Source: a virus. Taken from it: a stretch of 29,365 nt of DNA. The notes beneath the pieces were generated by a model. It was not told where the DNA came from and ran no database searches. It saw nothing but the letters and a program-made list of their open reading frames with translations. The DNA lies in IMG/VR virus record IMGVR_UViG_3300030331_001224, positions 1 to 29,365 of that record. One strand, given 5' to 3'. A program made the translations under genes and the position numbers. This document shows positions 292-29,365 of the stretch, in pieces. The stretch's first letter is position 1; the number at the start of each line of letters is the position of its first letter.

Positions 292-2448
292 TTAAACTCT
301 ACCTGCTACTTCTTCAAAGCTAACACCAGTTCTGGTGGCAACAAATGTAAGAGTAACATAGTTGATTGATCTTGCAGGCTTCAAGAAGATGTCTGCTCTG
401 AACTCATTATTATCAATGATGTCAGGAGTGTTATTAGTTTCATCACAAATAACTAGGAAACCACTCAATCCTCTCTTTGCTTCCACATCCCTTAGGAATG
501 GTTCAACAATATTAACAAAGTTTGCTCTTGTGACTTGATCATTTAATTCAAAGAGTTGTGCTTCTGCTGCTTTCTGTAGTGATTGTTCAATTGTTAAGAA
601 TAGTCTTCTAACATTGATTCTATCAAATGCAGATGCAAATCCTAACCCAGTCTTATCACCAAACAACATGATGCCAATTCCAGGTTGATTAACTATGGAG
701 TTAATTCTTAGTGGATAAAGTTGATCTCTTTGTGCTTTATCAGGTGTGTATGCAAGTTTAATTGCATTGTTCAAGATTCCTCTCTGCTGTCCAGCAGGTG
801 AGAACCATGGGAATGAATTAACACTTGTTCTTACCATCAATCCAGCAACATCACCATTGGTTGGGATGAATCTGAATGTATTGTTGAATCTATCAAAGGT
901 ATACTTATATCCAGTATCAAATACTGCATATGAAGATGATGATAGAGAACTATAGAACTTGATTATATTATCAGTTTGAGTATCTGTATTTGTTATGTTT
1001 ACAACATCTGCTCTGTGTGGAGAAATGGTTGTCATACAATCCTTTCTTGCACCAGCAATAGAAATTAACCTATTTGCTTTTGCTTGTGATTGTTCTTTAC
1101 TTCCAAGGCCAGGACCCATTATCAAGTAGTCTACTTGTATCTCATCCTTATTCTTGAATAAGTTGTAAGATGTAATTAGATTACCAAGGGTTGCTGTGAA
1201 TCCACCAGTAGCAGAATAATCTGCACCAGCAGTCAATGTGTAAGTATTATTTCCAATAACATTGAAGGTAATACCCTGTGCATTTCTATTCCAACCACCA
1301 GAAGCAGTGGTTATTGGTGTATAACCAGAACTAAAGTCTGATGCAGCAACAAAACCATCTGAACCATCTGATGGATCATCACCTGCATAGATGTATTGAG
1401 AGTAGAGTGACAACCAATCCTTATAGAATGTCTTCTGAGGTGCATCTACAGATGAAACTGCATCAGTAGCCTTAGATAGATTTAAATTTTTCTCAAGAAT
1501 ATTACCCTGTATGCCTGTTACATCACCAAGGTCATCTACAACAACAATGTGCATTCCATCATTCTTAGATGATCTATCACTTGCCCACACAGTTGTATCT
1601 GGTCTAGGAGAAATTGATTTCCAGAACACTGTTGAGTTTGTCAGTCCTAGAGTTTGTTCATCATACCAGTCTTTGGCAAAATTACCTCCCTCTATCTTAG
1701 CAGTTGCAACTCCAACTTCAGATGAGTTAATTACACTAACATTATTTCCAGATAATATTGATCTTGCTTGATCACCCTGAGCATAGGTTATATTAGTTGA
1801 GACTCCAGCAGTAGTGACCCTTTGTGTTATCTTAACATCAATGGTAGTTGCACCTAGACCAGTAATGATACCTTTTAGATGTCCAGTGAAGTTTGAAGTA
1901 TCACCAGCACCAGCTATGACTTGATTAGTAAGTGAAACAGATACACCCATTCCAACACTGATGCCAGAAGTGGTTCCTATACCTAGTCTTTGGTCTGCAG
2001 CGTTGTCAATGAAACAAACTTTAAGATTGTTTGCCCATGTACCAGGTGTCTTAGCAGCATAACCAAATGTCTGACCTACACCAGCATAGTTTGCCACATA
2101 GTCATCATAGTTCTTGATCTTAAGATCAGTAACCACAGTTTGGTGTGACCTATTGCCATTAGCATTGACTAGATCGTCATCATCAGTTCTTACTACTTTA
2201 AGAACTCCACCATATGAAAGGAATGAAGATGCACTCATCCAATATTCATACTGAGCATCAGTAGAAATTGGTTTTCCAAATGTGTTGATTAATTGTTGCT
2301 CTGTAGTGATGTCAGTGGCTTCATCAATAGGACCAATTTCAAAAGGACCAGCAATGGCACCAATATTATCTAATACATTTTCTGCTCTCCCTACAGTCAG
2401 ATCCACCTCCCTTACTAATACTCCAGGAGATAATTGTGGAGTCGCCAT
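292..2448 (-). CDS. gp18: Contractile tail sheath protein gp18
   Basis: This is the 718-aa sheath subunit that surrounds the tube and contracts at infection (T4 gp18 is 659 aa). The N-terminus has the sheath signature LSPGVLVREVDLT and then NTFGKP (T4 NTFGQP). The C-terminal sheath domain, about residues 540-718, shows FDRINVRRLFL, NNTPDIIDNNEF and PARSINYVTLTFVATRTG, each nearly matching T4. The middle (about residues 110-330) is beta-rich and more divergent, as expected for the protruding domain. The start is ATG 2448, with a modest GAGG nine bases upstream and a late promoter octamer at 2481-2488. gp19 follows directly. The identification is secure. Confidence 0.97.
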   Translation of the reverse strand: MATPQLSPGVLVREVDLTVGRAENVLDNIGAIAGPFEIGPIDEATDITTEQQLINTFGKPISTDAQYEYWMSASSFLSYGGVLKVVRTDDDDLVNANGNRSHQTVVTDLKIKNYDDYVANYAGVGQTFGYAAKTPGTWANNLKVCFIDNAADQRLGIGTTSGISVGMGVSVSLTNQVIAGAGDTSNFTGHLKGIITGLGATTIDVKITQRVTTAGVSTNITYAQGDQARSILSGNNVSVINSSEVGVATAKIEGGNFAKDWYDEQTLGLTNSTVFWKSISPRPDTTVWASDRSSKNDGMHIVVVDDLGDVTGIQGNILEKNLNLSKATDAVSSVDAPQKTFYKDWLSLYSQYIYAGDDPSDGSDGFVAASDFSSGYTPITTASGGWNRNAQGITFNVIGNNTYTLTAGADYSATGGFTATLGNLITSYNLFKNKDEIQVDYLIMGPGLGSKEQSQAKANRLISIAGARKDCMTTISPHRADVVNITNTDTQTDNIIKFYSSLSSSSYAVFDTGYKYTFDRFNNTFRFIPTNGDVAGLMVRTSVNSFPWFSPAGQQRGILNNAIKLAYTPDKAQRDQLYPLRINSIVNQPGIGIMLFGDKTGLGFASAFDRINVRRLFLTIEQSLQKAAEAQLFELNDQVTRANFVNIVEPFLRDVEAKRGLSGFLVICDETNNTPDIIDNNEFRADIFLKPARSINYVTLTFVATRTGVSFEEVAGRV

Positions 2449-2480
2449 GTCGTCTAGCCTCGTCTCAGTTTATCTGAAAA

Positions 2481-2488
2481 TATTTATT
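2481..2488 (-). promoter_or_regulatory. T4-type late promoter upstream of gp18
   Basis: The minus strand reads AATAAATA, matching NATAAATA, 32 bases before the gp18 ATG. It sits in the longest intergenic gap of the window (78 bp, 2449-2526). Position and match both fit a gp55-dependent late promoter driving sheath and tube. No convincing terminator hairpin was seen in this gap. Confidence 0.65.
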
Positions 2489-2526
2489 GTTTTCTATGTT
2501 TTCATTGGGGAAACACTCCATGAACA

Positions 2527-2754
2527 TTACCAATCTGGATAATTCCAATCTGAATGTGAGTGTTTTTTTCTACTCTTTACAATTCTTCTTACAGTGCATA
2601 CCTTACATTCATAGGAATATGCTGATGCTAGTGTCCCTCTATCTTTACGAGTTAAATAGAATCCATCTATTAAATTTTTAGTCTCACCACATACCCTACA
2701 TTTTCTATCAGAAAGTAATAAGTGTCCTAACCTTATCTGATTATCAATTTCCAC
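2527..2754 (-). CDS. Small zinc-ribbon protein between gp17 and gp18
   Basis: This 75-aa protein has two CxxC pairs, CRVCGETKNL at about residues 19-28 and CKVC at about 50-53. They are separated by about 28 residues containing FYLTRKDRG, and the tail is basic (VRRIVKSRKKH). This is a classic four-cysteine zinc ribbon, seen in many small phage nucleic-acid-binding or HNH/endonuclease VII-like proteins. No catalytic HNH triad is visible, so nuclease activity is not supported. The start is GTG at 2754, whose G is the last base of the gp17 stop (TAGTG), implying translational coupling to the large terminase. There is no internal ATG to prefer. A role in packaging or late transcription is possible but unproven. 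Confidence 0.75.
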   Translation of the reverse strand: MEIDNQIRLGHLLLSDRKCRVCGETKNLIDGFYLTRKDRGTLASAYSYECKVCTVRRIVKSRKKHSHSDWNYPDW

Positions 2755-4457
2755 TACTTATAATCCCACATAAAAGATCTATCTCCATACTCATCAGTGT
2801 TCCAAGAACTAGGTGTTCCTGCTAATCTATCTAGTTCTAAAGTGCCATTATCTATTTTCCAAGTGTCTCCCTCTGAGTCTACAAAACTATCATCATCTAA
2901 ACCATCCATGATAAAACCAAATGGAGACATATCTTGTTCTATTTGATTCTTTTGTTCATCATATAATCTTTTCCTTACATCCTGATCAGTAAGTTCTTTA
3001 AAATAATCTTGTGCTACCAACCATGCATAGATGACAAGACACATGGCAAGATCATCATTGCATCCTTCTTCTGCCTCAAATGAATTATGTTTTTGAATAA
3101 AGGTGGTCAACTCACTCAATATCTCATAATCTTTAAATGTTACTTTATCCTCTTCTATCAAAGTTTTTAAATTTAAAGAACCAACCTTTTTAACTGTCTT
3201 TGACATCTTGACACCTAGTTGTGTCTTCTTACCAGAGAATCCTTGTCCTACAATTTGACCTGCTCTACCACGCATAGAACACATTAATAAATTTTCATAC
3301 TCTAAATCAAAGTTAAGAATAGAAGCAACCTGATCTCCAACATCATTTACTTCACATAAAATAAAAGCATTATTATAACTCTTTGCTACTTCCCATATGA
3401 GATTGGGAAATAGCATGGGTTTGATTTCATTATTCCTATACTTTGCCACAACTCTATGAGGAAACTCTGTGATATCAATAACAATAAAAGCAGAATAATC
3501 TCCACCCACTCCTCTTGCCACATCAACAGTAATTACATAATCACCACCTTTTTTACATGGTTCATATACATCCAGTCCAGCACTTCTGGTCTGTGGTTCA
3601 TCATATACTAGTACCCTTAATTTACTAGGAGATATGAGTGTATCAACAGATCCTAAGAACTCACACTCAAACTCAACCTTGAACTGTTGTTCTGATGTGT
3701 TGGCAATAGTTGATTTTCTCCACTTCTCATCCCTACCAGGCACCTCACTCCAATGCACATCTGTGGGAACATATTCATTCTTTCCTTTCTCTGCATCATG
3801 CCACAACCTATAGAAGTGATTCATACCATGAGGTGTAGAGACTATGATGACTTTAGTGCTCTTACCTGAGGTAATAGTAGGATAAACTGAACTGAAGAAT
3901 GAATCAGCTATATGATTAGGAACAAATGCAAATTCATCCAAGAATAGAATGTTGAATGACATACCCCTCACAGCAGATGCTGATGTTGAAGCAGCAAGAA
4001 TTTTAGATCCATTCTCCAGTTCTAAACTACCCCTGTTCCATGCTATGATACCTTGTTGCATCCACTTGGGTAAATTTTCATATGCAGTTTGCAATCTACC
4101 TAGCAGTTCTCTAGCAGTTGCTGCTTTGTTTGCTAGTATGCCTACATTGACACTATCATTGAAAACAACATAGTGTAGTAGGTATGCCACACAGGTGGTA
4201 GACTTACCAGTCTGTCTGGGCATCTTACAAATATTAAATCTATTCTCATGGAAGTTCTTAATTAACTTCTTCTGAAAATGATAAGGTTTAAATGCTGTCA
4301 GACCTTCATCAAGACTTACAATCTTGACATACTTCTCTGCAAAATAAATTGGATCATTCCTACAAGCATAAAACTCAAGTATTTGTTCTTGACTAAATTC
4401 TTGAGCAACGTTTGCTCTCTTCAAATTGGGATTACCCAAATAAATGTTGTCTGACAT
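2754..4457 (-). CDS. gp17: Large terminase subunit gp17 (ATPase/nuclease)
   Basis: This is the DNA-packaging motor: it cuts concatemeric DNA and pumps it into the prohead through the portal. It is 567 aa (T4 gp17 is 610). ATPase domain: Walker A RQTGKST at residues 81-87, Walker B NILFLDE at 169-175 with catalytic Glu175, and coupling motif STPHG at 207-211. RNase H-fold nuclease domain: acidic residues in VDVARG (Asp312), CEVNDVGD (Glu369) and CNDDLAM (Asp468/469), matching the T4 Asp401/Glu458/Asp542 triad. The C-terminal tail (500-567) is acidic. The start is ATG 4457, behind a strong AGGAGG. The small terminase gene lies 4.4 kb upstream instead of adjacent as in T4. Confidence 0.97.
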   Translation of the reverse strand: MSDNIYLGNPNLKRANVAQEFSQEQILEFYACRNDPIYFAEKYVKIVSLDEGLTAFKPYHFQKKLIKNFHENRFNICKMPRQTGKSTTCVAYLLHYVVFNDSVNVGILANKAATARELLGRLQTAYENLPKWMQQGIIAWNRGSLELENGSKILAASTSASAVRGMSFNILFLDEFAFVPNHIADSFFSSVYPTITSGKSTKVIIVSTPHGMNHFYRLWHDAEKGKNEYVPTDVHWSEVPGRDEKWRKSTIANTSEQQFKVEFECEFLGSVDTLISPSKLRVLVYDEPQTRSAGLDVYEPCKKGGDYVITVDVARGVGGDYSAFIVIDITEFPHRVVAKYRNNEIKPMLFPNLIWEVAKSYNNAFILCEVNDVGDQVASILNFDLEYENLLMCSMRGRAGQIVGQGFSGKKTQLGVKMSKTVKKVGSLNLKTLIEEDKVTFKDYEILSELTTFIQKHNSFEAEEGCNDDLAMCLVIYAWLVAQDYFKELTDQDVRKRLYDEQKNQIEQDMSPFGFIMDGLDDDSFVDSEGDTWKIDNGTLELDRLAGTPSSWNTDEYGDRSFMWDYK

Positions 4458-4468: not shown

Positions 4469-4613
4469 ACATCATTTCATACTTGCCAAACTTTTGGTCA
4501 TGTTCTCTAGTCTTTATAGTCATATCTATAATCCTTTCCAAATCCTTAATTCTTTTTTTCAAATCTCTAGTATGTTGATCCTCCAATTTGGAGGAGTGGT
4601 TCTCCTGGTTCAT
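4467..4613 (-). CDS. Possible 48-aa coiled-coil protein overlapping the next gene upstream
   Basis: A short frame runs from ATG 4613-4611 to TAG 4469-4467. It encodes 48 residues beginning MNQENHSSKLEDQ and ending KFGKYEMM. The middle (residues 14-40) is highly charged with heptad-like spacing of hydrophobics (LKKRIKDLERIIDM), predicting a helix or coiled coil. Its first 47 bases lie in another frame inside the end of the 81-aa gene. It ends nine bases before the gp17 ATG, with the gp17 ribosome binding site overlapping its stop. I see no clear ribosome binding site of its own. It fills what would otherwise be an unexplained 109-bp gap in a tightly packed genome, which is the main reason to believe it. 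Function unknown. Confidence 0.5.
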   Translation of the reverse strand: MNQENHSSKLEDQHTRDLKKRIKDLERIIDMTIKTREHDQKFGKYEMM

Positions 4614-4812
4614 GTTTTGAAACTTGGTAATTCCAGAGTTTTGCGCCAGGATACACTTTTACCACTTGATCCTGAACTTCTCTGCGTGATGGTTTTTTGA
4701 TTGAAGGGAAAAACATTTTTATCATGTAGTTTTTACCTCTCCAAGACAAATAAACGTCAATTACATTTCCTACACCTGCTCTTAATTTTGTAGCCTCATG
4801 AAAGGAAATCAT
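4567..4812 (-). CDS. Conserved hypothetical small protein (81 aa)
   Basis: This 81-aa protein begins MISFHEATKLRAGVGN. It has a central basic segment (SWRGKNYMIKMFFPS, then KKPSRREVQDQ) and VYPGAKLWNY toward the C-terminus. I recall similar small proteins upstream of gp17 in T4-like cyanophages, but no function is established. It has no membrane segment and no metal motif. The start is ATG 4812, 37 bp after the preceding gene; an ACTAAATA octamer lies in that gap. Its 3' end overlaps the 48-aa frame by 47 bp. Confidence 0.8.
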   Translation of the reverse strand: MISFHEATKLRAGVGNVIDVYLSWRGKNYMIKMFFPSIKKPSRREVQDQVVKVYPGAKLWNYQVSKHEPGEPLLQIGGSTY

Positions 4813-4849: not shown

Positions 4850-5194
4850 TTAAGTATTGATAGATGTTCTTATTACTTTGAAAGTAGTAGAACTGGTAGA
4901 TGCTGGTGTGACTAATAATCTTACATTGCCACCACTTATGTCACTATCAAAACTTGCTAAACTATTTCCAGTCTTAACAATAGCAAACTCAGTGTTGAAT
5001 GTAAGAGATCCATTATGCACAATAATAAATTCTGCAGTATGGTAATTACTTCCTTGTGTTACTTGTATTTGATACTTTACAGATCTAAAACTTGTTTTAG
5101 AAAATACATCCAATGCAACTTCAGATACACTAGTTGTGGTTAAACTAGCAACAGTTATGTTACTGAAATTTGCTTGACTTAATAATCTAGGCAT
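4850..5194 (-). CDS. Small beta-rich virion protein (114 aa), related to repeats in the giant baseplate protein
   Basis: This 114-aa protein is almost entirely alternating beta sequence, with no signal peptide or membrane segment. From about residue 40 it reads YQIQVTQG, then AEFIIVHNG, TEFAIVKTG, LASFDSDISGG, RLLVTP and FKVIRTSI. Small proteins like this are common in marine T4-like phages and are presumed structural. The same order of motifs recurs three times in the 1855-aa protein (about 27215-28207). One copy there reads SEILVVDNG, TEYGIVQTGG, LGDFSINING and VRVFQNAI. The gene overlaps the preceding one by 8 bp, implying coupled translation. Virion role is inferred; it may be a head or tail decoration protein or a fibre adaptor. 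Confidence 0.82.
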   Translation of the reverse strand: MPRLLSQANFSNITVASLTTTSVSEVALDVFSKTSFRSVKYQIQVTQGSNYHTAEFIIVHNGSLTFNTEFAIVKTGNSLASFDSDISGGNVRLLVTPASTSSTTFKVIRTSINT

Positions 5195-5519
5195 TTGCAG
5201 TTTCCAAGATACTGAGGATTAATTTCAAACTATCATTTGCACTCCCTTGAATTTTGATAGAGTCACTGGTTTCTAAAACTAGTTTTCCATCCAGAGGAAC
5301 ATATGCATCTGATGGTGGAACTGAAGCATCTTTAATAATTTCAGTGGTGGTTGAACTTCTCACATGAGTCATAGTAAATGTAGCTGCACTAGTGGTTACA
5401 TTAGTTACATGAGCATACAACACAATAGCAGTGTATCCTGTAGGAGCAGTATAGGCAGTCTGATTAGAAGAAGTGACCTCTAATGTTTCTGTTTGAAATC
5501 TGTTAAGTGCGAGTGCCAT
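5187..5519 (-). CDS. Small beta-rich virion protein (110 aa)
   Basis: This 110-aa protein begins MALALNRFQTETL and continues with beta strands: YTAPTGYTAIVLYAHV, FTMTHV, LDGKLVLETSDSIKI and a C-terminal LKLILSILETANA. The GKLVLE...D.L/I...ILSILE pattern recurs in small presumed virion proteins of cyanophages and pelagiphages. No enzymatic motif is visible. It follows the 1103-aa gene after a single base (TAATATG) and overlaps the 114-aa gene by 8 bp, so the three are probably made together and may form one appendage. A trimeric fibre-tip or decoration protein is a guess from size and composition only. Confidence 0.82.
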   Translation of the reverse strand: MALALNRFQTETLEVTSSNQTAYTAPTGYTAIVLYAHVTNVTTSAATFTMTHVRSSTTTEIIKDASVPPSDAYVPLDGKLVLETSDSIKIQGSANDSLKLILSILETANA

Positions 5520-5520
5520 A

Positions 5521-8500
5521 TTAACTTAATGCTAGGATAAAGGGTGTCACTTCTGTGAATAGACTCTTACTAAATGATCTTCCACTAATTGTACCAGTTT
5601 CTTGGTTGATTTGTAAATCATCACCAATTCTAAAGTTACCAGCTTGATCTGTACTTGTGTATATTACCTTTCCACCATCAGAAGTAACAACTTCATTTTC
5701 TTGAATTGTTACCCCACCACGTTTTGGTGTGGCAGTGGCAATGGTATTTCCAGATCCAACATACTCAAAGGTATGAGAACTGGCAATAATTTTACTTTGT
5801 TGGAAGAAAGATGCAGTTGAACCAACACCAACAGCATTAAGCAAATTAGTGCCAAGTGTTACTGTAGTAATTCCAGATACTACTGGTGTTGAACTATTTA
5901 TTGCATAATAAATGGGAGCCATGACAGCAGTTGCAGTAGCAGTATTGACTCCAACATTAGGAGCACCAATTGTTACATCAGGAGTTTCTGTATATTGACT
6001 TCCACCACTGATAATAGTGATGGATTTAACAGACTCATCTTCTAAAGTTGCAAATGCTGTGGCAGTTTCTCCATTAGGACCAGAGGGAGCATCTAAGGTA
6101 ACTGTAGGTGTTGAAGTATATCCTGTTCCACCAGAACCAACTGTTATAGTTTGCACCTGTTCAAATAAAGTATTGAAAAATACTTGCTGTCCATCATATG
6201 GTCTATCAATATCAATAGCTGCTGTTCCTCCAGAAACATAAGTATGTGCTACTGTTGATATACCCAAGTTAACTTGGAATGTGGTTGATGTGGGAATGGC
6301 ATCAACTTCAAATACAAATGGTTTTTTATTTGGATAAGTTTTTTGACCAAAGGGACAACTAAAAACAATGTTTGCTAAAGTCACTCCCATTCCAACTTGG
6401 AATCCATGAGCAGCATTAGTGGTAATGGTTGCTTGTCCAGTTGTATTAGTGTAAGCCACACCAGTGATGGTGCGTGTGGGAGTGTTTATATCAAGAACTA
6501 CTTTATCTTGAGAGACAGCAGCAGTGGATGTGACAATTCCTGTGAATTGAAGTGGTCCTACACCCCTTGCTACCAATCCCTTTGTTCCAAAACTACAATT
6601 ACTATTTGCTAGATCTGCTTGTCCCCCTGAATCACAAGTCACTGCCTCATCACAACATATAGTGAATAGAGAAACTAACTGAGCAAAACCACCATTAGTG
6701 ACAGCAACACCAACACCACCTTGATTATACTGAGTAAATGAATCTACATTCATTGTTTTTAAAAGTCTTGCTTGTTTCCCATCAATTCTAATTCCAGTCC
6801 CTGTTGTAGTGTCACTAGTGCAATTTTGAACATATGGACCTTTCCACTTACCACCACCTATATTTTCTGCTATCTCTCCAGTAGGAAATCCAACTGCAGC
6901 AGCAGGTGCAATATGGTTTTGAAAAGTCATATTAGCTAACTTGACACCCTTTCTAACTGAGAATATATCTTTCTCTGGTGTGCTACCTATTACATTAACA
7001 GACCTTTGATCATCTCCAACAACAGAAACATTAGCAGGTACTTCTATGGGATTAACTTCAACATATGTACCTGAAAAAACTTTAACAGTAGATCCTGAAG
7101 TTGCAATACCAACTGCACCCTTGATTGTTAACTTAGCATTATCAATTGATGTTCCATTATTACTATCATCTCCATCTTTAGCAACATAAAAAACATTGGG
7201 AGCAGAGTTGATACCAGTAGCAGAGGCATTAATTGTTACATTATCACCAAGCACAACTTGTGAATTTGTAATAGTAACAAGACCAACATTAACTGTATTA
7301 TTATCACCATCAATAGTAACTGACCCTTCACCAACAGTGAGAATACCAGTAACACGAGTGTTACCTTTAACTAAAAGAGTGGTGCCACCTGCAGCAACAT
7401 TAGAAGTGCCTATTGTAGTAATGCCCAATATAGTGGCATTTCTATTAATTTGTAAATCTTTTCTACCTGTAATAATACCAATAGAATCTAAATTCTTTAT
7501 ATTTTCTTGAGTTGTTATTCCACTTACTACAAGGTTATCTAATGTTAAATTTGTTCCTGTACAAAATTCTGCTAACTCATCAGGTGGTGTAGTATCTGCA
7601 GCAGTAAGAGATGTGCTTGCTATGCCAACCCAATTATTACCATCATAAATTAATAATTTATTTTCTCCTGTGCTCTCAGTAAAATCTACATCACCAAGAT
7701 CTTTTATAAATCCAGCACCACCTCCACCAATGGTGTATAACTGTTGCTCTACCCTGTTAACAAAGAGTCTGTAATTTGTTGCTAAATCTTGAAGTGTAGC
7801 AAACTTTTGATCTGTAGGAGTAAGAGGATCATCACCTTGTTTTGCTGAAGGATCATGAGATATAATTTCCTCACTTAATAATTGTTGCTTACTTTTTATA
7901 CTCTCAACAATTTCATAAAGTTCCCCTATGTTGACATTTTGTTTATCTGACTTTTCATTTAACTTCTCAATATCTTTATCATAATATTTTACTTCTGGAA
8001 GATTAGAAATTTCTTCTTTTAATCCATCAAAATAATTTTTAACTTCCTCACTAATCTCAATACTTTTATCATCTATCTTCTTCTCAATATTTTGTTTTGT
8101 TTCATTTAACTTACTTAGTACACTCTTCTTTAATTTTCTATCATCATCTTTAAATTGATTTCTATACTCATATATTCTAAGAGCAGTTTCTCTCAACTCC
8201 TCATATATTTTATCTTTAGTTTCTTGTAAATATTTTTTAGTTTCTTGTAAATTTTCTTTTGTTTCTTTAATCTCAACTCTCTTTTCAAAATCTTTAGTAT
8301 CAAAGTTTTCAGTTAAGTTATCAATATCTTGATTAAATGTATCCTTAAGAGTTCTAAGATTATCATTAACTTTTTCAAAATCATCATCTATGTTCCTAAA
8401 AGTTTTACCAATCCAAGAAAAATCAGGAACTATATCCTCTCTAACTTTTTGAATCTCCTGTCTTACAAGAATAAAATCATCTTCAACATTAGGAATACTT

Positions 8501-8832
8501 TCCTTAACTTGCTCTATATGATTAAGAAGTTCTTGTAATTCATTATCATATGATTTTATTTCAGGTATCTCAGGAATACTTTCTTTAAGATCATTAACCA
8601 GACGTAATAACTCAGGCCAAGGAGGAACTACATCTTTTACTTCTGCAAAAGTTTCTCCATTAGCATCCTCTATGGTTTGTGTAGATTCCTCTATCTCCTC
8701 TTCTTTCTCTATATAACTTTCTACTGATGGTAAATCTTTTTCTTCTACAAGATCAGCAAGTGAAGGTAATTCCTGATCACTCTTTTCAAAGTCGTCAATA
8801 GATGGCAAATTTTTATTCTTGTCGTCAGACAT
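5521..8832 (-). CDS. Large fibre-like structural protein: acidic coiled coil plus beta-helix
   Basis: This 1103-aa protein lies between the terminase genes. Residues 1-45 contain three short repeats starting LPS (LPSIDDFEK, LPSLADLVEEK, LPSVESYIEK). Residues about 75-325 are charged and helical, including LQETKKYLQETKDK and the repeated PEIKSYD/PEVKYYD. Residues 378-406 (DLGDVDF...LLIYDGNNWVGIAS) resemble a motif frequent in tail-fibre proteins. Residues about 545-765 look like a right-handed beta-helix, starting FYVAKDGDDSNNGTS, with STVKVFSGTYVE and a cysteine cluster ICCDEAVTCD. Residues 893-966 carry two GxGYT-type repeats. The C-terminus (GNFRIGDDLQI, SFSKSLF) matches my memory of cyanophage structural proteins. 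The design suggests an extended trimeric fibre or whisker; its attachment site is unknown. Confidence 0.88.
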   Translation of the reverse strand: MSDDKNKNLPSIDDFEKSDQELPSLADLVEEKDLPSVESYIEKEEEIEESTQTIEDANGETFAEVKDVVPPWPELLRLVNDLKESIPEIPEIKSYDNELQELLNHIEQVKESIPNVEDDFILVRQEIQKVREDIVPDFSWIGKTFRNIDDDFEKVNDNLRTLKDTFNQDIDNLTENFDTKDFEKRVEIKETKENLQETKKYLQETKDKIYEELRETALRIYEYRNQFKDDDRKLKKSVLSKLNETKQNIEKKIDDKSIEISEEVKNYFDGLKEEISNLPEVKYYDKDIEKLNEKSDKQNVNIGELYEIVESIKSKQQLLSEEIISHDPSAKQGDDPLTPTDQKFATLQDLATNYRLFVNRVEQQLYTIGGGGAGFIKDLGDVDFTESTGENKLLIYDGNNWVGIASTSLTAADTTPPDELAEFCTGTNLTLDNLVVSGITTQENIKNLDSIGIITGRKDLQINRNATILGITTIGTSNVAAGGTTLLVKGNTRVTGILTVGEGSVTIDGDNNTVNVGLVTITNSQVVLGDNVTINASATGINSAPNVFYVAKDGDDSNNGTSIDNAKLTIKGAVGIATSGSTVKVFSGTYVEVNPIEVPANVSVVGDDQRSVNVIGSTPEKDIFSVRKGVKLANMTFQNHIAPAAAVGFPTGEIAENIGGGKWKGPYVQNCTSDTTTGTGIRIDGKQARLLKTMNVDSFTQYNQGGVGVAVTNGGFAQLVSLFTICCDEAVTCDSGGQADLANSNCSFGTKGLVARGVGPLQFTGIVTSTAAVSQDKVVLDINTPTRTITGVAYTNTTGQATITTNAAHGFQVGMGVTLANIVFSCPFGQKTYPNKKPFVFEVDAIPTSTTFQVNLGISTVAHTYVSGGTAAIDIDRPYDGQQVFFNTLFEQVQTITVGSGGTGYTSTPTVTLDAPSGPNGETATAFATLEDESVKSITIISGGSQYTETPDVTIGAPNVGVNTATATAVMAPIYYAINSSTPVVSGITTVTLGTNLLNAVGVGSTASFFQQSKIIASSHTFEYVGSGNTIATATPKRGGVTIQENEVVTSDGGKVIYTSTDQAGNFRIGDDLQINQETGTISGRSFSKSLFTEVTPFILALS
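5935..6156 (-). repeat. GxGYT beta repeats in the 1103-aa protein (2 copies)
   Basis: Residues 893-966 contain TVGSGGTGYTSTPTVTLDAP and then ISGGSQYTETPDVTIGAP, two tandem units of about 37 residues. The same unit occurs in gp8, gp14 and both giant proteins. Confidence 0.75.
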
Positions 8833-22892: not shown

Positions 22893-23774
22893 CTAACTGA
22901 CATTGACAGTCTTCAAGCTTCCATCATTTTCAACTAATAATCTATATTGAGTTCCATTTGGAGAAGTTAATACAACTCCAGCAGCAGTGCTAACTCCAAT
23001 GAAAGCATCATTTACTGCATTTATTCCAGTAGTGCTAATAGTAACACCATATCCAATGACTGCTTCTCTAATTGAGGCAATACCAGTCATTCTCATACCA
23101 CCTTCTTTATTGAAGGTATTGCCAGTTCCAACAGTGGATATTCCAACTATGGATAAATTACCAGCAACACTTACATCACTAGCAAAAGTTCCTACACCTG
23201 CTGCATTGACACCTCTAGTATTAACATCATCCCCAAGTGTGGTGCTATTACCAACACTTACTAATGAACTAAATGTAGATGCTCCAGATACATTGACCTG
23301 AACAGCATTAAGAGCAACAGATGTAAATGAGGTTATACCAGTCACTTTTAAACCACCTGTCAATGTGGTTTCTCCAGTAACATTACTACCACCAGTAACA
23401 ACTAATCCACTACTTACAGTTAATCCACCTCCAATATTTCCACCACCAACAACAGTTAATTTGGAGGTAACTGTTGTGGTTCCTATACCAACTCCTCTTG
23501 ATACAGTGGTAATACCTGTAGTATTTTCATTCCAATAAGATGATATACCAGTTGTTTCTAAAGCAGTGACAGTGACTTGTCCAAATGCAGTGCTAATACT
23601 TATATTATCTCCCGCAGCAATTGCTGTTACAATTCCTGGTGCTAGATTAGTTCCATCACCACAAAGAGTATAGACCTCAGTGAAATTTGCATTTACTTTT
23701 TCAGCACCAGACAGTAAGGTATCACCTGTTCCATCATTTGGCTGTGATCCAGTGCTTATGCCCAGTTTTGCCAT
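22893..23774 (-). CDS. Short tail fibre with gp9/gp10-type baseplate attachment domain
   Basis: This 293-aa protein begins MAKLGISTGSQPNDGTGDTL, followed by KVNANFTEVYTLCGDG. This aligns closely with the N-terminus of T4 gp10 (DDGTGDYLRKGG, KINENFDELYYELGDG) and more loosely with T4 gp9 (ASTGDILFDGG, KINSDFNAIY). In T4 these domains fix the fibres to the baseplate periphery. After the first 60 residues the sequence becomes a glycine/threonine/valine shaft, GVGIGTTTVTSKLTVVGG then GGLTVSSGLVVTGG and GETTLTGGLKVTG. This is typical of a trimeric beta-fibre. The end (SPNGTQYRLLVENDGSL) looks like a small cap. It lies directly before gp8. A baseplate-bound fibre or spacer is likely; receptor binding is not shown. 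Confidence 0.87.
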   Translation of the reverse strand: MAKLGISTGSQPNDGTGDTLLSGAEKVNANFTEVYTLCGDGTNLAPGIVTAIAAGDNISISTAFGQVTVTALETTGISSYWNENTTGITTVSRGVGIGTTTVTSKLTVVGGGNIGGGLTVSSGLVVTGGSNVTGETTLTGGLKVTGITSFTSVALNAVQVNVSGASTFSSLVSVGNSTTLGDDVNTRGVNAAGVGTFASDVSVAGNLSIVGISTVGTGNTFNKEGGMRMTGIASIREAVIGYGVTISTTGINAVNDAFIGVSTAAGVVLTSPNGTQYRLLVENDGSLKTVNVS

Positions 23775-23794: not shown

Positions 23795-23802
23795 TATTTA
23801 GA
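23795..23802 (-). promoter_or_regulatory. Late-promoter-like octamer upstream of the 293-aa fibre gene
   Basis: The minus strand reads TCTAAATA, overlapping the stop of the giant gene and 20 bases before ATG 23774. It is the same octamer, with the same spacing, as upstream of gp19. Confidence 0.45.
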
Positions 23803-26800
23803 GATATTCCTTATCTCTTAAAGGGTTGAATCTTTGAATAAATCCTGAGGTAGATATACCTGCAAGACCATCTTGACCATAGAATTTAAAGTCTCTAGCT
23901 TGAGTTCTTGAACCTAGTTCTAGATAACCCCAACTATAAGTACCAAAGAATGGAGCATTATGTACACTACCAGTAAAGGTAACACCTATTCCATTAGAAT
24001 CAAATTTAGTATTGGTTGAATCAAACTTCAATATAGAAGAATCAAATGAGTCTGTAGTAAATAAATCAATATTCACAAACACTCTAGTTATAAATGTTGT
24101 TGCTGTTCCTACAGTGGATATGCCAATTGCAGTATTAGCAACACTGACAATATTAACATCTGACACTTGATAAACATTATCTATAAATTGAGTTCCCACA
24201 CCAATAGTGGTTGCTCCCCCAACATTAAATGATCTCAGTGTGGTAGATGCTGATCCAACATTACTTTCATCTACTAGGAAGAAATCACCTACACTTAAGG
24301 AACTTAAAGTCACTGCAGTACCAACATAAGTGCTATCTCTTAAGAAAGAATCTTCAGGGATATACAAGTCAAATATAAATTTATTTTGACTTCCAGAGGT
24401 AGTTGTTCCAAAACCAACTATTGTACCATAATCACCAGAATAAGTTACTGAAGTTACTTTTTCAACTCTGTTAGCCATCTTTGGTTCTTCAATAAGAACT
24501 GCAGGAGGACTAGAGACAGTGTATCCACTACCAATATTAGTGATGGTAACAGAATTTACACTATCACCATCCATAACAGCAACTGCTTTTGCTACTTGAG
24601 TGGTTCCCATTCCAACAGGTTGTTCAATAGACACTGTGGGAGTAAAGGTATAACCAATTCCTACCTCAGATAGAACAATAGATGTAATAGATCCAGCAGT
24701 AGAAACTAAAGCTGTACCAGCAGCTCCAGATGCATCCTCTTGAGAAACTATATTGATAGAATTTTGTGATCCAAAGTTTTCTTTGGTGCTATCAAAGAAT
24801 ATTCTAATATTTTCAACATATGCCTCTGTAGAAGCTATACCCACTGGTTGTATCAAACTAGTGGTTGGATAAATCAATGGTTCATAATGAGATCTATCTT
24901 TGGTAATTGATTGACCATCAATGACCTTATCTACAATTTGTTTGTGCCAATTAATTGGTCTATCAAAAGTTTCATTAGTAGTAATGCCAGGACCAGGATA
25001 TGGATTAGTATTGACATTATCAGCAGCATTGATACTGGTTACTGTTCTAAGATCTTCTTCTAGTGCTAGATCTTGATTATGCAATCTTACTTCATCACCT
25101 GTTTGAATTGTTTCTAAAATATCAACAGTAGCAGTATCAACTGATGCAGTTCCTTTATAGAATAAAATCTTAGAAGTATCACCTTTCTTAGGTGCTTCTT
25201 TAAAGGTAATAAAACTACCACCTTTAAACTCATATCCATTGCCAGGAACCTGCAAGATATCATTTATGAATACTAGAATAGTAAGTTCAACATCAACATT
25301 AGATCCTGGTTGTGATTGAATTGTTTGTTGAGTTCCATTTAATTTTAATGGGAAGGATGTGTCTTGACCATCAAATAAATTATCTAAGGGATCTAATACC
25401 TCTAGATCTCCAATAGTCCAAGCAGCAAAACTATCACTTCCAACTTCCCTTACAGTAACTTCAAATTGTCTGGATGGACTAAAGTTACTATCAGTTGGTA
25501 TACCCACTGTTCCACCAACACCAATTGTTAAAACTTGATCCTCACCATAACCAAATCCCTCATTAATAATTTCAAAATCAATAACACTAGATCCTTGTCC
25601 TACAACTATATTTGCCCTTGCCTCAGATCCAATTCCACTAGATGATGGAGCATAGAATAAAGGCATATTGGTATATGATAGTGGTTCATCAATAACCACC
25701 AATGGAGGATTAGTTGTTGTATATCCAGTGCCAGGATTAGTGATTGCAACACTTACAATATTACCATTGCTAATTGCAGCAGTACCAATAAACTCAATAG
25801 CTGGAGTTCCAGTGCTTAATGTCTGAACACCAACATTAACCACAGTTTGAATACCAGACCTATATCCAGAACCACTATTACCAATACTAATAGAGGTGAT
25901 AGTTCCTAAACCAGATACAACAGCAGTACCACCTGCAGCTACTAATGGTTGATATCCAAATCCCTCTGTAGATCCAACAGATACAACCACACCACCTAAA
26001 GGAACATTAGCAGTGTTTGGATCATATGATACTGAAGCAATGGTTCCTGTATATTGAATACTAGTAATACCAACACTTTCTCTTAAAGTAAAGTCTCCAT
26101 TAACAGTAACTCTCCTAGATTCAAGACCAGTCATTCTTTGTGGTCCTTGTGCCACTTGATTAACTAAAACAATCGCATTACTTGTAGAGAATCCTGTTAC
26201 ATTACTTCCTTCAACCTGTAAAGTAAATTCAGTGGTGAGTCCAGAGAATCCATGAGAAATATCATCAAAGATATAATTTAAACTGTATGGTTCAGCAGAA
26301 CTACCAGTAATACCAGATCTCATGAAGGATCTACCATTAAATGTAGAGTGTGTTGCAACACCTACAAAATCTCTAGAATCAGGTTCATTAGTTGTGGAAG
26401 ATAAAGGAGTTAATCCAACTGGAGCAGTAAAGAAGTGAACTTCATTATCCACTATATTATAGTTACCATCAATTTTTGTAACCAAATCACCAGAACTATA
26501 ATTAGAAACTCCTGTTCCCATCCAAGGTCTAGTAACCAACAATCTATTAGTTGCACCAAGTCCAACAGAATCAACTTTAACAATTTCATTGCCAATCTTT
26601 AACATATCTCCACCAGTTATGGATGTGATACCTGAAATTGTTATTGTGTCTGCAGTAGTTGATACATCAGCAACAAGGTGAGTAGTAACAGAAGTAGCTA
26701 CAATAGGTTGCTGAATTACATTATCAATACTGATTATACATCTTGAATTTTGTTTTTTAGATGTAAATGAATGAGAAGTACCTACACCAACAGCAGTGAT

Positions 26801-29365
26801 GTCTATGAAGGTAGGGTTAGTTTTAAGAGCATTCTCAGCACTTGTTGCTAGTTGTAATGTTTTATCGTCTTTTTTGATAGCAAAGACTGTGGAGGGTAGT
26901 TTATCTGTAACTCCAACACCTGGAATAGATTGAGATGCAATCTCAATAGCAGATGTAGTTCCAGCTCCAGTAAATCTATACTCTAATTCTTCACCAGTCA
27001 CAAAGAAGTGATTTGGAATTATCACACTATCTGTGATAGTGCTGACAACAGTAGAAGCTCCTCCTACAAAGTCTCTTTTAAATATGGGTTTCTGTTTATG
27101 CTTAAGTTCAAATTCTCTTTTAACATCAGTTTCAGTTGCAGTGTAAGCACCTGATCCTGTATTAACACTAGCATTAGTAAATCCTATTTCTTGATTAGCA
27201 TTAGAATCATCAACTAATCTTATAGCATTTTGGAATACTCTAACTTGCACATCTGCACTTGCTAAAGGTTTAAATCCTAAGTGTGTAAAATCACCATTGA
27301 TATTGATAGAGAAATCACCAAGATTTCCTCCAGTCTGAACAATACCATATTCAGTTAAGTTTCCAGTTGTTCCATTATCTACCACTAATATTTCAGATAC
27401 TTGATATTGACTATTGCTTAGATCTTCCAGACTCACAATATAATATGCAGCAGCAAAGGTTTCAGTTTCATATTTTGCTACAGTGGTGATACCAGGAGAA
27501 CCACTAGATGAAATACTAGTGACACTACTATCTAATGTTGCAGTGTTTAGTGAATCAGTTCCTACACCTGCAGATAATGAATTACCAATACTGACTTTTA
27601 TACTATTAGCAATGAAAGTAGTGGCTGTACCTACTGTAGGATGAAGATCAATATTAATATAAGAACCTGAATAGTAAGCACTATAAGTTCCTAAACCAGG
27701 AGTTCCTGAAGGACTTCCTAATTCATCAGTGTTTAATTGACCATACTCTAATAATTCAATATCAGTTCCATCATGAACCATAGTCAATTCTTCAGTTTCA
27801 TAATAAGATGTATCACTAGAAGCATAAGAAACTAAGATCTTAGAAGATCTATAAGTTGATGCAATACCAACAATGGTAGCAGAAGTGCTAATACCTGCTT
27901 CTATCAATTGACTATCACTACCAACATTTACTATGCTACCAAAATCAGTAGATCCTATTCCAGCAGTAGAATCTCCTACATTATAAGCAAGCACAGATAC
28001 ATCATAATTATTGAATGAGAATTTTTTAGGGAAGAATAGAAGTTGACCATTATCACCAGATTGTGACATATCAAATGAACCCAATTCATTCTCAGTCCAA
28101 ACTGAACCATACTGGTTTAAGAAAAAGTTTCCTGACTCATCATGAAGTGCATTGACAATCATGACTTGTCTTTCACCAGTAAATCTTTTATCTCTTACAT
28201 AGATAATTGATTTCCTATCTCTTGATCCAGCTAATGCAAATGTATCAACAGCCATGAATGGATCTGTTCTAGCATTATTATTAAAATCTTGACTGATATC
28301 ATCAATTGATAATACTCTGTTACCAACAGATTCTGTATAATCTTTGAGATCTCTAGAACTAAAAACTATTTCATCTGATAATATAGAATCATCAATACTT
28401 TCAGTTTTTTCTCTTGCCAAATCAAAATCAAATACAGTGTTAATGCTAATTGGTTCTACTAAATCAGTTTGAACATCAAAACTACTTCCATCCTGAACAG
28501 TTGATAATCCTGCAGAAGTTTCACTTTTCAATATTAAATCACTAAACTTTTTAAATCCTGCAGTGTGATTTAATGAAGCTACTACCTCTTTCCACTTTTC
28601 AAATTCACACTCTGATTTCAATGAATATGAGAAGTATTGATAATAATCACTATCAAATAATCTTTGTTCATTATTATTTAAGAATCCAAAATTATCTTTC
28701 CAACCCTCAATCTTTATTGAGGATGATTCTATGTTATAAAGAGATTTGTATGAAATATGCTCAATTATTGTGGCTTTAGTTCCTGAGGATTGTCCAACAA
28801 CAGTATCTCCTACCTTAAAATCTGCAGGTGATGAAACTTTTAAGAATCCATTAAAATCATTTCTTGATTGTAAGATACCAACTGCTGTATCAGATTCTAA
28901 AGTTTCTCCAATATCAAATTCATTACCTTTTAAAGTAGTGCTAAATGTAGGGAAATCTTCTTCTTTAATGATCCTACCAATAGAAGATTCATTAAAAGTT
29001 CCAGCTATGTCTCCATCAGGAATAACACCAGCTAAACTATAGGTTATACTTCCTAAAGTTCCACCAATGTTAGGATCAGTGGCTAATATTTCAAACAACT
29101 TATATTCATAGTTTGCAGAGTTATATCCTTTACCAGTGCTTCCCACTCCTACACTGATACCCTCAATCATCACCTTCTTACCAACCTCAAATGGATACTC
29201 ATCTAAGGAACTGTAACTAACACCAATTGATATTGTTACTCTTTGATTAGATTCATTAAAATCTGCAGAGGCAATCTTAACTCCATTAGAGTTTCCAGTA
29301 GGGAGAATGGTGGGTTCAACTTGATTTAAATTTCTACTATTTTTTAAGATAGTAACATTCTCATC
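23798..29365 (-). CDS. Giant virion structural protein, N-terminus outside window (at least 1855 aa)
   Basis: The frame is open from the stop at 23798 to the window edge, so codons upstream of the GTG at 29173 belong to it. They read GVSYSSLDEYPFEVGKK immediately before VMIEGISVG. Near the visible start are a VGDTVVGQSSGTKATI module and a block YYQYFSYSLKS / FEKWKEVVASLNHTAGFKKF, as in other marine phage giants. About residues 387-717 hold three tandem beta domains related to the 114-aa protein. Further on are an RP-x-MG module, an RDFVGVATH segment, six GxGYT repeats in two blocks, FINDILQVPGNGYEF, and a C-terminus GTYSWGYLELGSR then FNPLRDKEYL. It lies two genes before gp8, roughly the slot of T4 gene 7, but I see no gp7 similarity. 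A baseplate or long-fibre role is inferred. Confidence 0.88.
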   Translation of the reverse strand, partial: DENVTILKNSRNLNQVEPTILPTGNSNGVKIASADFNESNQRVTISIGVSYSSLDEYPFEVGKKVMIEGISVGVGSTGKGYNSANYEYKLFEILATDPNIGGTLGSITYSLAGVIPDGDIAGTFNESSIGRIIKEEDFPTFSTTLKGNEFDIGETLESDTAVGILQSRNDFNGFLKVSSPADFKVGDTVVGQSSGTKATIIEHISYKSLYNIESSSIKIEGWKDNFGFLNNNEQRLFDSDYYQYFSYSLKSECEFEKWKEVVASLNHTAGFKKFSDLILKSETSAGLSTVQDGSSFDVQTDLVEPISINTVFDFDLAREKTESIDDSILSDEIVFSSRDLKDYTESVGNRVLSIDDISQDFNNNARTDPFMAVDTFALAGSRDRKSIIYVRDKRFTGERQVMIVNALHDESGNFFLNQYGSVWTENELGSFDMSQSGDNGQLLFFPKKFSFNNYDVSVLAYNVGDSTAGIGSTDFGSIVNVGSDSQLIEAGISTSATIVGIASTYRSSKILVSYASSDTSYYETEELTMVHDGTDIELLEYGQLNTDELGSPSGTPGLGTYSAYYSGSYINIDLHPTVGTATTFIANSIKVSIGNSLSAGVGTDSLNTATLDSSVTSISSSGSPGITTVAKYETETFAAAYYIVSLEDLSNSQYQVSEILVVDNGTTGNLTEYGIVQTGGNLGDFSININGDFTHLGFKPLASADVQVRVFQNAIRLVDDSNANQEIGFTNASVNTGSGAYTATETDVKREFELKHKQKPIFKRDFVGGASTVVSTITDSVIIPNHFFVTGEELEYRFTGAGTTSAIEIASQSIPGVGVTDKLPSTVFAIKKDDKTLQLATSAENALKTNPTFIDITAVGVGTSHSFTSKKQNSRCIISIDNVIQQPIVATSVTTHLVADVSTTADTITISGITSITGGDMLKIGNEIVKVDSVGLGATNRLLVTRPWMGTGVSNYSSGDLVTKIDGNYNIVDNEVHFFTAPVGLTPLSSTTNEPDSRDFVGVATHSTFNGRSFMRSGITGSSAEPYSLNYIFDDISHGFSGLTTEFTLQVEGSNVTGFSTSNAIVLVNQVAQGPQRMTGLESRRVTVNGDFTLRESVGITSIQYTGTIASVSYDPNTANVPLGGVVVSVGSTEGFGYQPLVAAGGTAVVSGLGTITSISIGNSGSGYRSGIQTVVNVGVQTLSTGTPAIEFIGTAAISNGNIVSVAITNPGTGYTTTNPPLVVIDEPLSYTNMPLFYAPSSSGIGSEARANIVVGQGSSVIDFEIINEGFGYGEDQVLTIGVGGTVGIPTDSNFSPSRQFEVTVREVGSDSFAAWTIGDLEVLDPLDNLFDGQDTSFPLKLNGTQQTIQSQPGSNVDVELTILVFINDILQVPGNGYEFKGGSFITFKEAPKKGDTSKILFYKGTASVDTATVDILETIQTGDEVRLHNQDLALEEDLRTVTSINAADNVNTNPYPGPGITTNETFDRPINWHKQIVDKVIDGQSITKDRSHYEPLIYPTTSLIQPVGIASTEAYVENIRIFFDSTKENFGSQNSINIVSQEDASGAAGTALVSTAGSITSIVLSEVGIGYTFTPTVSIEQPVGMGTTQVAKAVAVMDGDSVNSVTITNIGSGYTVSSPPAVLIEEPKMANRVEKVTSVTYSGDYGTIVGFGTTTSGSQNKFIFDLYIPEDSFLRDSTYVGTAVTLSSLSVGDFFLVDESNVGSASTTLRSFNVGGATTIGVGTQFIDNVYQVSDVNIVSVANTAIGISTVGTATTFITRVFVNIDLFTTDSFDSSILKFDSTNTKFDSNGIGVTFTGSVHNAPFFGTYSWGYLELGSRTQARDFKFYGQDGLAGISTSGFIQRFNPLRDKEYL
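24481..24720 (-). repeat. GxGYT beta repeats in the 1855-aa protein, C-terminal block (2 copies)
   Basis: Cores are LSEVGIGYTFTPTVSIEQP and TNIGSGYTVSSPPAVLIEEP, about 40 residues apart. Confidence 0.8.
25505..25990 (-). repeat. GxGYT beta repeats in the 1855-aa protein, central block (4 copies)
   Basis: Cores are STEGFGYQPLV, GNSGSGYRSGIQ, TNPGTGYTTTNPPLVVI and INEGFGYGEDQVLTIGV. This is the densest such block in the window together with gp14. Confidence 0.75.
26445..26680 (-). repeat. R-P-x-M-G...G module in the 1855-aa protein
   Basis: The segment reads GGDMLKIGNEIVKVDSVG, LLVTRPWMGTG, YSSGDLVTKIDG. It resembles the modules in gp15 and the 2695-aa protein, but the His is not conserved. 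Confidence 0.5.
27215..28207 (-). repeat. Three tandem beta domains related to the 114-aa protein
   Basis: Copy 1 (about 27980-28207) has VMIVNALHDESG, NQYGSVWTEN and LGSFDMSQSGD. Copy 2 (about 27590-27865) has ELTMVHDGTD and LEYGQLNTDE. Copy 3 (about 27215-27470) has EILVVDNGTTG, TEYGIVQTGG and LGDFSINING. The shared order is a hydrophobic strand ending V-x-H/D-x-G, then E/Q-Y-G-x-V/L, then L-G-x-F and a long strand pair. The free 114-aa protein shows the same order. Confidence 0.6.

Follow-up and report, generated by a model that had tools for sequence, protein, structure and literature searches.

The locus studied here raises the question of how a protein of 114 residues is related to a giant protein encoded in the same viral genome, and of what the domain they share could do in the virion. 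The window, i.e. the whole stretch of DNA that was analysed, is a linear virus record of 29,365 bases whose minus strand is a block of virion genes of a T4-like cyanophage (Kyanoviridae). Named by BLAST against S-SM2 and annotated relatives, the genes follow each other on that strand in the order gp18, gp17, an 81-aa ORF, the 114-aa protein, a 110-aa protein, a 1103-aa fibre-like protein, gp16, gp15, gp14, gp13, proteins of 129 and 78 aa, a 2695-aa VrlC-like protein, gp8, a 293-aa protein and a 5'-truncated gp7. The small ORF was found on the minus strand exactly where the original prediction had placed it. The two proteins compared are encoded at:

4850..5194, minus strand: 114-aa stand-alone gp9-C-type domain (from ORF, fold and profiles)
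23798..29365, minus strand: gp7 (baseplate wedge initiator), of which 1855 aa are present, the 5' part being cut off by the window edge

The giant protein is assigned to cyanophage gp7, a label that comes from annotation and gene order. Its profile match to phrog_2885 ('baseplate wedge subunit') reaches 1336 bits, its tblastn matches to annotated Kyanoviridae gp7 proteins stand at 27-44 %, and the window has the order gp7-293 aa-gp8, to be set beside gp6-gp7-gp8 in S-SM2 and Bellamy. The 1855 residues present align with positions 2235-4065 of Bellamy gp7 (4067 aa), the full length of gp7 being about 4100 residues in Bellamy and S-SM2, and the three domain copies lie at about residues 2582-2967 in the gp7 proteins of Bellamy, S-SM2 and P-TIM68. 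A GTG at 29173 was considered as the start of the giant and rejected, as the frame continues without a stop as far as the window edge and the apparent start is a truncation artefact. T4 gp7 and Bellamy gp7 share one 34-aa BLAST segment of marginal significance (E 7e-4), and a sequence search of the PDB with the gp7 segment and with Bellamy gp7 returned no solved relative of gp7.

The original prediction regarded the small protein as a free, single-domain form of what the giant carries in triplicate, and this is borne out both by profile similarity and by a shared predicted fold. In the two comparisons that it had suggested, profile-profile alignment (hhalign) of the 114-aa protein with copies 1, 2 and 3 gave probabilities of 97.7, 97.7 and 98.8 %, and the 114-aa protein and copy 3 were both found to match the C-terminal domain of T4 gp9. 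A search of the record with the 114-aa protein returned the protein itself, followed by 27221-27490 (E 1.7e-8) and 27998-28147 (E 5.5e-4), both in the frame of the giant. Furthermore, with a profile of 62 relatives, the significant copies in the giant numbered exactly three (i-E 2.4e-5, 8.1e-7 and 3.6e-15), and 14 other proteins of the window gave no significant match. The upstream limit of the segment that had been named, 28207, has to be moved, copy 1 starting at about 28267. The copies are delimited as follows:

about 27968..28267, minus strand: gp9-C-type domain copy 1 in gp7 (from profiles)
about 27578..27937, minus strand: gp9-C-type domain copy 2 in gp7 (from profiles)
about 27209..27556, minus strand: gp9-C-type domain copy 3 in gp7 (from profiles and fold match)

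Sequence divergence between the gp7 copies is strong. Scored as a single sequence, copy 3 (42.7 bits) exceeds all 2000 shuffles, the maximum of which is 30.8 bits; copies 1 and 2 (29.6 and 27.3 bits) do not pass this maximum and thus rest on profiles. With copy profiles made of 38 viral rows plus Bellamy, S-SM2, B23 and P-TIM68, copies 1-3 match each other at 91-98 %, all reversed controls being at 11.9 % or less, and the reversed profiles of the three copies give 0.1-4.7 % against the 114-aa profile (hhalign). Since the profile alignments score high and the reversed controls low, the triplication and the free copy are both real.

At the structural level, the AlphaFold2 model of the 114-aa protein, computed from the 62-row alignment, contains eight beta strands (pLDDT 91.7, pTM 0.83). 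Fold searches with Foldseek and VIA-align gave residues 161-284 of T4 gp9 as its best PDB match (Z 14.3, 113 aligned residues, rmsd 2.6), and a baseplate chain of Klebsiella phage KP1 as the second (Z 12.2). Next come the C-termini of Acinetobacter tailspikes and of a Klebsiella fibre, with Z between 7.0 and 10.9, a range that also takes in one bacterial tailspike-like enzyme (Z 7.6); the remaining, unrelated rows have a Z of 5.9 or less. The gp9+10 connector of Aeromonas phage 65 is among the matches to viral models. Copy 3 of gp7 superimposes on residues 169-286 of T4 gp9 (Z 14.0, rmsd 2.0). The model of the segment with all three copies (pLDDT 72.7, pTM 0.77) displays about seven strands repeated three times, joined by low-confidence linkers, and its matches to antibody-like and jelly-roll folds are at background level (Z about 5-6).

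The relationship with gp9 extends to sequence profiles. The C-terminal part of a gp9 family profile built from ten phages aligns with the 114-aa family at 95.6 % (E 1.1e-8) over gp9 residues 179-266, and the controls, i.e. the gp9 N-terminal domain, reversed profiles, gp10, gp11, gp8 and gp7, remain at 0.6 % or less. Moreover, the C-terminal domain of T4 gp9 scores above all 2951 scored shuffles against the 114-aa profile. Homology between the 114-aa family and the gp9 C-terminal domain is established. Copies 1, 2 and 3 alone reach 1, 22 and 32 % against the same gp9 profile; as these direct scores are weak, gp7 and gp9 are linked by way of the 114-aa family, to which the fold adds a second line in the case of copy 3. 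The similarity to T4 gp9 is weak and visible only in targeted comparison. Searches of PDB sequences with the 114-aa protein and its profile gave no credible match, Pfam returned nothing for the 114-aa protein (E up to 1) or for the gp7 segment, and the profile search of genomes found no match in Syn9 and T4.

Reading frames were traced at 79 viral loci. At these listed loci the domain is either a separate gene of 114-116 aa or the extreme C-terminus of a longer protein, with 1-4 residues remaining after the match in all the relatives that are not stand-alone. The longer carriers are mostly fibre-like, and some start with a tail-fibre N-terminus (MPTQVQFRRGTT). Besides the gp7 triple, S-SCSM1 has two more copies, and the lengths of their frames agree with proteins of 557 and 1054 aa named 'Virion protein'. 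In a tree of 44 domains, nine gp7s being represented, copies 1, 2 and 3 form one clade each across the nine (100/99, 96/88 and 98/94), and all gp7 copies fall in one clade with moderate support (93/87). The stand-alone copies form one group, also with moderate support (91/85), close to the fibre-terminal ones and outside the gp7 clade. Exactly three copies were found in each of the nine gp7s. Judging from these sequences, the triplication is old, predates the divergence of these gp7s and has kept each position distinct. The stand-alone group being outside the gp7 clade, the possibility that the 114-aa gene is a recently excised gp7 copy was rejected. No description of the domain in cyanophages was found in the open-licence literature searched. 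At a separate locus (L109, 5037-7131), the domain is present in each of three successive genes (275, 136 and 246 aa), which is a triplication at the gene level in a setting other than gp7.

T4 gp9 is a trimeric baseplate socket, whose C-terminal domain is joined coaxially by the long tail fibre. In the T4 tail, gp7 is a monomer present in 6 copies and gp9 a trimer amounting to 18 copies; the N-domain of gp9 binds gp7 and the fibre attaches to the C-terminal domain (PMC3004832). T4-like cyanophages have no recognisable gp10, gp11, gp12, gp34, gp35 and gp37 genes, and how their fibres are joined to the baseplate is an open question (PMC2984593). Considering the homology of the four copies, their fold, the relationship with gp9, the gene order, the C-terminal placement and the ancient, position-specific triplication, we propose, with a probability of about 0.55, that the domain is a gp9-type cap or socket for fibres, present once per trimeric fibre chain and three times on gp7, and that the 114-aa protein is the detached module capping a fibre.

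According to this proposal, the domain would be the cyanophage form of the T4 gp9 C-terminal domain and would act as a terminal three-fold cap or socket. Fibre chains, presumably trimeric, would each bear one copy at the C-terminus. With its three tandem copies, gp7, which is a monomer in T4, would form from one chain a pseudo-trimeric fibre-holding site adjoining the conserved gp7 core. The 114-aa protein would be the same module detached from the fibre; made together with the 1103-aa fibre-like and 110-aa proteins, it would trimerise and dock through its N-terminal tail onto the 1103-aa fibre as a cap, joint or socket. The fibre socket, normally made of three chains, may thus be built here into one; if true, this would plainly illustrate how a viral connector made of three identical chains can become a pseudo-trimer within a single chain. 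A gp9 fibre-holding fold that occurs three times in gp7, and singly on fibres and as a small protein, offers concrete residues and proteins to test.

In a more specific form of the proposal, gp7 would contain a single-chain pseudo-trimeric gp9 socket that does the work of three gp9 chains in T4, and three chains of the 114-aa protein would come together as a genuine homotrimer at a joint of a fibre in that virion; we hold it tentatively, at somewhat less than even odds. The pTM of 0.77 suggests a defined mutual arrangement of the three modelled copies, and a monomeric chain with three gp9-C domains supplies the right count for one three-fold site; both favour a pseudo-trimeric gp7 socket made of one chain. 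Alternatively, the gp7 copies could be independent spacers or docking beads that form no pseudo-trimer, only the single copies on fibres being able to trimerise. The low-confidence linkers of the model and the strong divergence of the copies would agree with such beads, but the pTM value for the three-domain segment and the constant number of exactly three copies in each of nine gp7s, with a clade of its own for each position, argue against them, and we consider this arrangement doubtful.

The surroundings of the 114-aa gene, which is located between the gp16-side fibre cassette and gp17, bear on its own function. Its immediate neighbours are:

5187..5519, minus strand: 110-aa protein, ORF overlapping the 114-aa gene by 8 nt
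5521..8832, minus strand: 1103-aa fibre-like virion protein

In the stand-alone genes, the order fibre-110 aa-114 aa-gp17 side is kept wherever the contig is long enough. In nearly all relatives the 110-aa and 114-aa ORFs share between one and eight bases (eight in the window), and a homologue of the 1103-aa protein precedes the pair wherever the contigs of the relatives reach so far. In S-SCSM1 and P-SSM2 the homologues of the 110-aa protein sit between two fibre genes, the one in S-SCSM1 being annotated as 'virion protein', and the 110-aa protein is a possible fibre joint. It was also considered as a further copy of the domain, which was rejected, as it has no sequence similarity to the 114-aa protein. 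Its family is present in 89 phage records, mostly of cyanophages.

Residues 1-13 of the 114-aa protein (MPRLLSQANFSNI) form a conserved N-terminal tail, in which L4, S6, Q7, N9, F10 and N12 are conserved at 95-100 % throughout the stand-alone family, and which the fused versions of the domain lack. AlphaFold2 confidence is lowest in this tail, which is probably flexible. A tail that is conserved yet flexible would resemble a docking peptide.

The small size of the gene, its place just after a fibre cassette and the overlap of the ORFs bring to mind that the 114-aa protein could instead be a non-virion assembly factor or a fibre chaperone. However, its homologues are parts of fibre-like and baseplate proteins, and in S-SCSM1, for which the virion proteome has been determined (PMC9602691), the carriers of the domain are named virion proteins, which makes such a function improbable. 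The original prediction had also put forward 'a decoration protein and its fused relative', and this suggestion is not retained: the tandem is in the baseplate protein gp7, the single copies are on fibre ends or in the fibre cassette, and the fold is that of gp9. The 114-aa protein is indeed small, all-beta and encoded among virion genes, as might be expected for capsid decoration, but its gene order, fold and relatives all indicate fibres and the baseplate, and the one decoration-type fold match (7dou, Z 5.0) is weak and at background level, so that we give this role hardly any credence.

For the 114-aa protein, the strongest competing reading is a glycan-binding adhesin tip; the bead, chaperone and decoration readings are less likely. 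As such a tip, the small protein would be the receptor-binding knob at the distal end of the neighbouring fibre, and the copies in gp7 would be a further set of knobs in contact with the host. The domain is C-terminal on fibres, its fold matches the C-terminal domains of Acinetobacter phage tailspikes and of the Klebsiella Kp9 fibre, and synteny with S-SCSM1 and P-SSM2 puts the 114-aa protein, after the 110-aa gene, in the place of the distal fibre gene. Conservation of the stand-alone protein is nevertheless similar to that of gp15, gp16 and gp18 and higher than that of the adjacent fibre (at locus L079, 45 % for the fibre, 57 % for the 114-aa protein, 54 % for gp15 and 63 % for gp16), which argues against a typical, variable receptor tip. 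Moreover, the top fold match, T4 gp9, is a connector. We regard the adhesin tip as unlikely and favour the gp9-type cap or socket.

Whether the triple simply takes the place of gp9 is a separate matter, as a third gene of the window is involved:

22893..23774, minus strand: 293-aa protein encoded between gp7 and gp8, bearing PF07880, the gp9/gp10 N-terminal domain of T4

PF07880 was detected in it at 23451-23759 with 25.4 bits (cut-off 25), followed by fibre-like sequence, and the protein is 60 % identical to the P-TIM68 connector over 75 aa. No gp9-C domain was detected in the 293-aa protein. With PF07880 on this separate protein, the two halves of the T4 socket are on different chains. S-B05, S-SCSM1 and P-TIM68, like the window, encode both the triple and a PF07880 protein, and the triple as an outright substitute for gp9 was therefore rejected. 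No PF07880 protein was detected in S-SM2 or Bellamy.

The domain described here resembles several known systems and differs from each. The C-terminal domain of T4 gp9 (1QEX/1S2E) shares with the 114-aa protein both the fold and, in the same region, profile similarity, but the 114-aa protein lacks the N-terminal gp7-binding domain of gp9 (PF07880), having its own short tail instead, and is encoded beside the fibre cassette whereas the gp9 gene comes after gp8; in cyanophage gp7, the domain occurs three times in one chain. In gp9+10 of Aeromonas phage 65, a gp9-type domain is likewise fused to another baseplate part, the partner being gp10, without a tandem triplication in gp7. The S-SM2 554-aa 'phage tail fiber-like protein' is 52 % identical to the 114-aa protein over its C-terminal domain, and its gene has the same neighbourhood, between gp16 and gp17; there, however, the domain is fused to the fibre and no 110-aa homologue stands alongside. 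Acinetobacter tailspikes (6E1R, 6C72) and the Klebsiella Kp9 fibre (7XY1), which are trimeric receptor-binding proteins, possess a similar C-terminal domain (Z 9.0-10.9) on depolymerase or fibre bodies, with no similarity in sequence by profile search of PDB sequences. A link at the level of the domain between a small cyanophage protein, three gp7 copies and the T4 fibre socket is more informative than the original reading.

Some relatives differ in how gp7 is organised. In phage B23 (L199, 1909-13688), gp7 is split into two ORFs directly after the triple, which occupies residues 2480-2838 at the end of the first ORF (2845 aa); the next gene, the second ORF (1081 aa), is homologous to all of gp7 that follows the triple. 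There is thus at least one phage in which the triple, too, is a C-terminal module. Syn9 (NC_008296, 60762-84404; L194) encodes a 6076-aa fibre-like protein whose alignment with cyanophage gp7 (residues 3137-3581 on Bellamy 2144-2598) stops where the triple begins, and no triple is recognisable at that place; a separate 406-aa connector of the gp9/gp10-N type comes after it.

Two further observations concern the gp17 side of the block. The 81-aa ORF (window 4567-4812) has a 47 % match to one segment of a 708-aa S-SM2 protein and is, at the same place in relatives, part of larger ORFs of up to 746 aa; it may be a reduced remnant or a minimal form. At two of the related loci (L057, 5163-7822, and L079, 8538-11173), about 590 bases interrupt the terminase gene gp17 at residue ~261-265, and are a candidate intron or other insertion.
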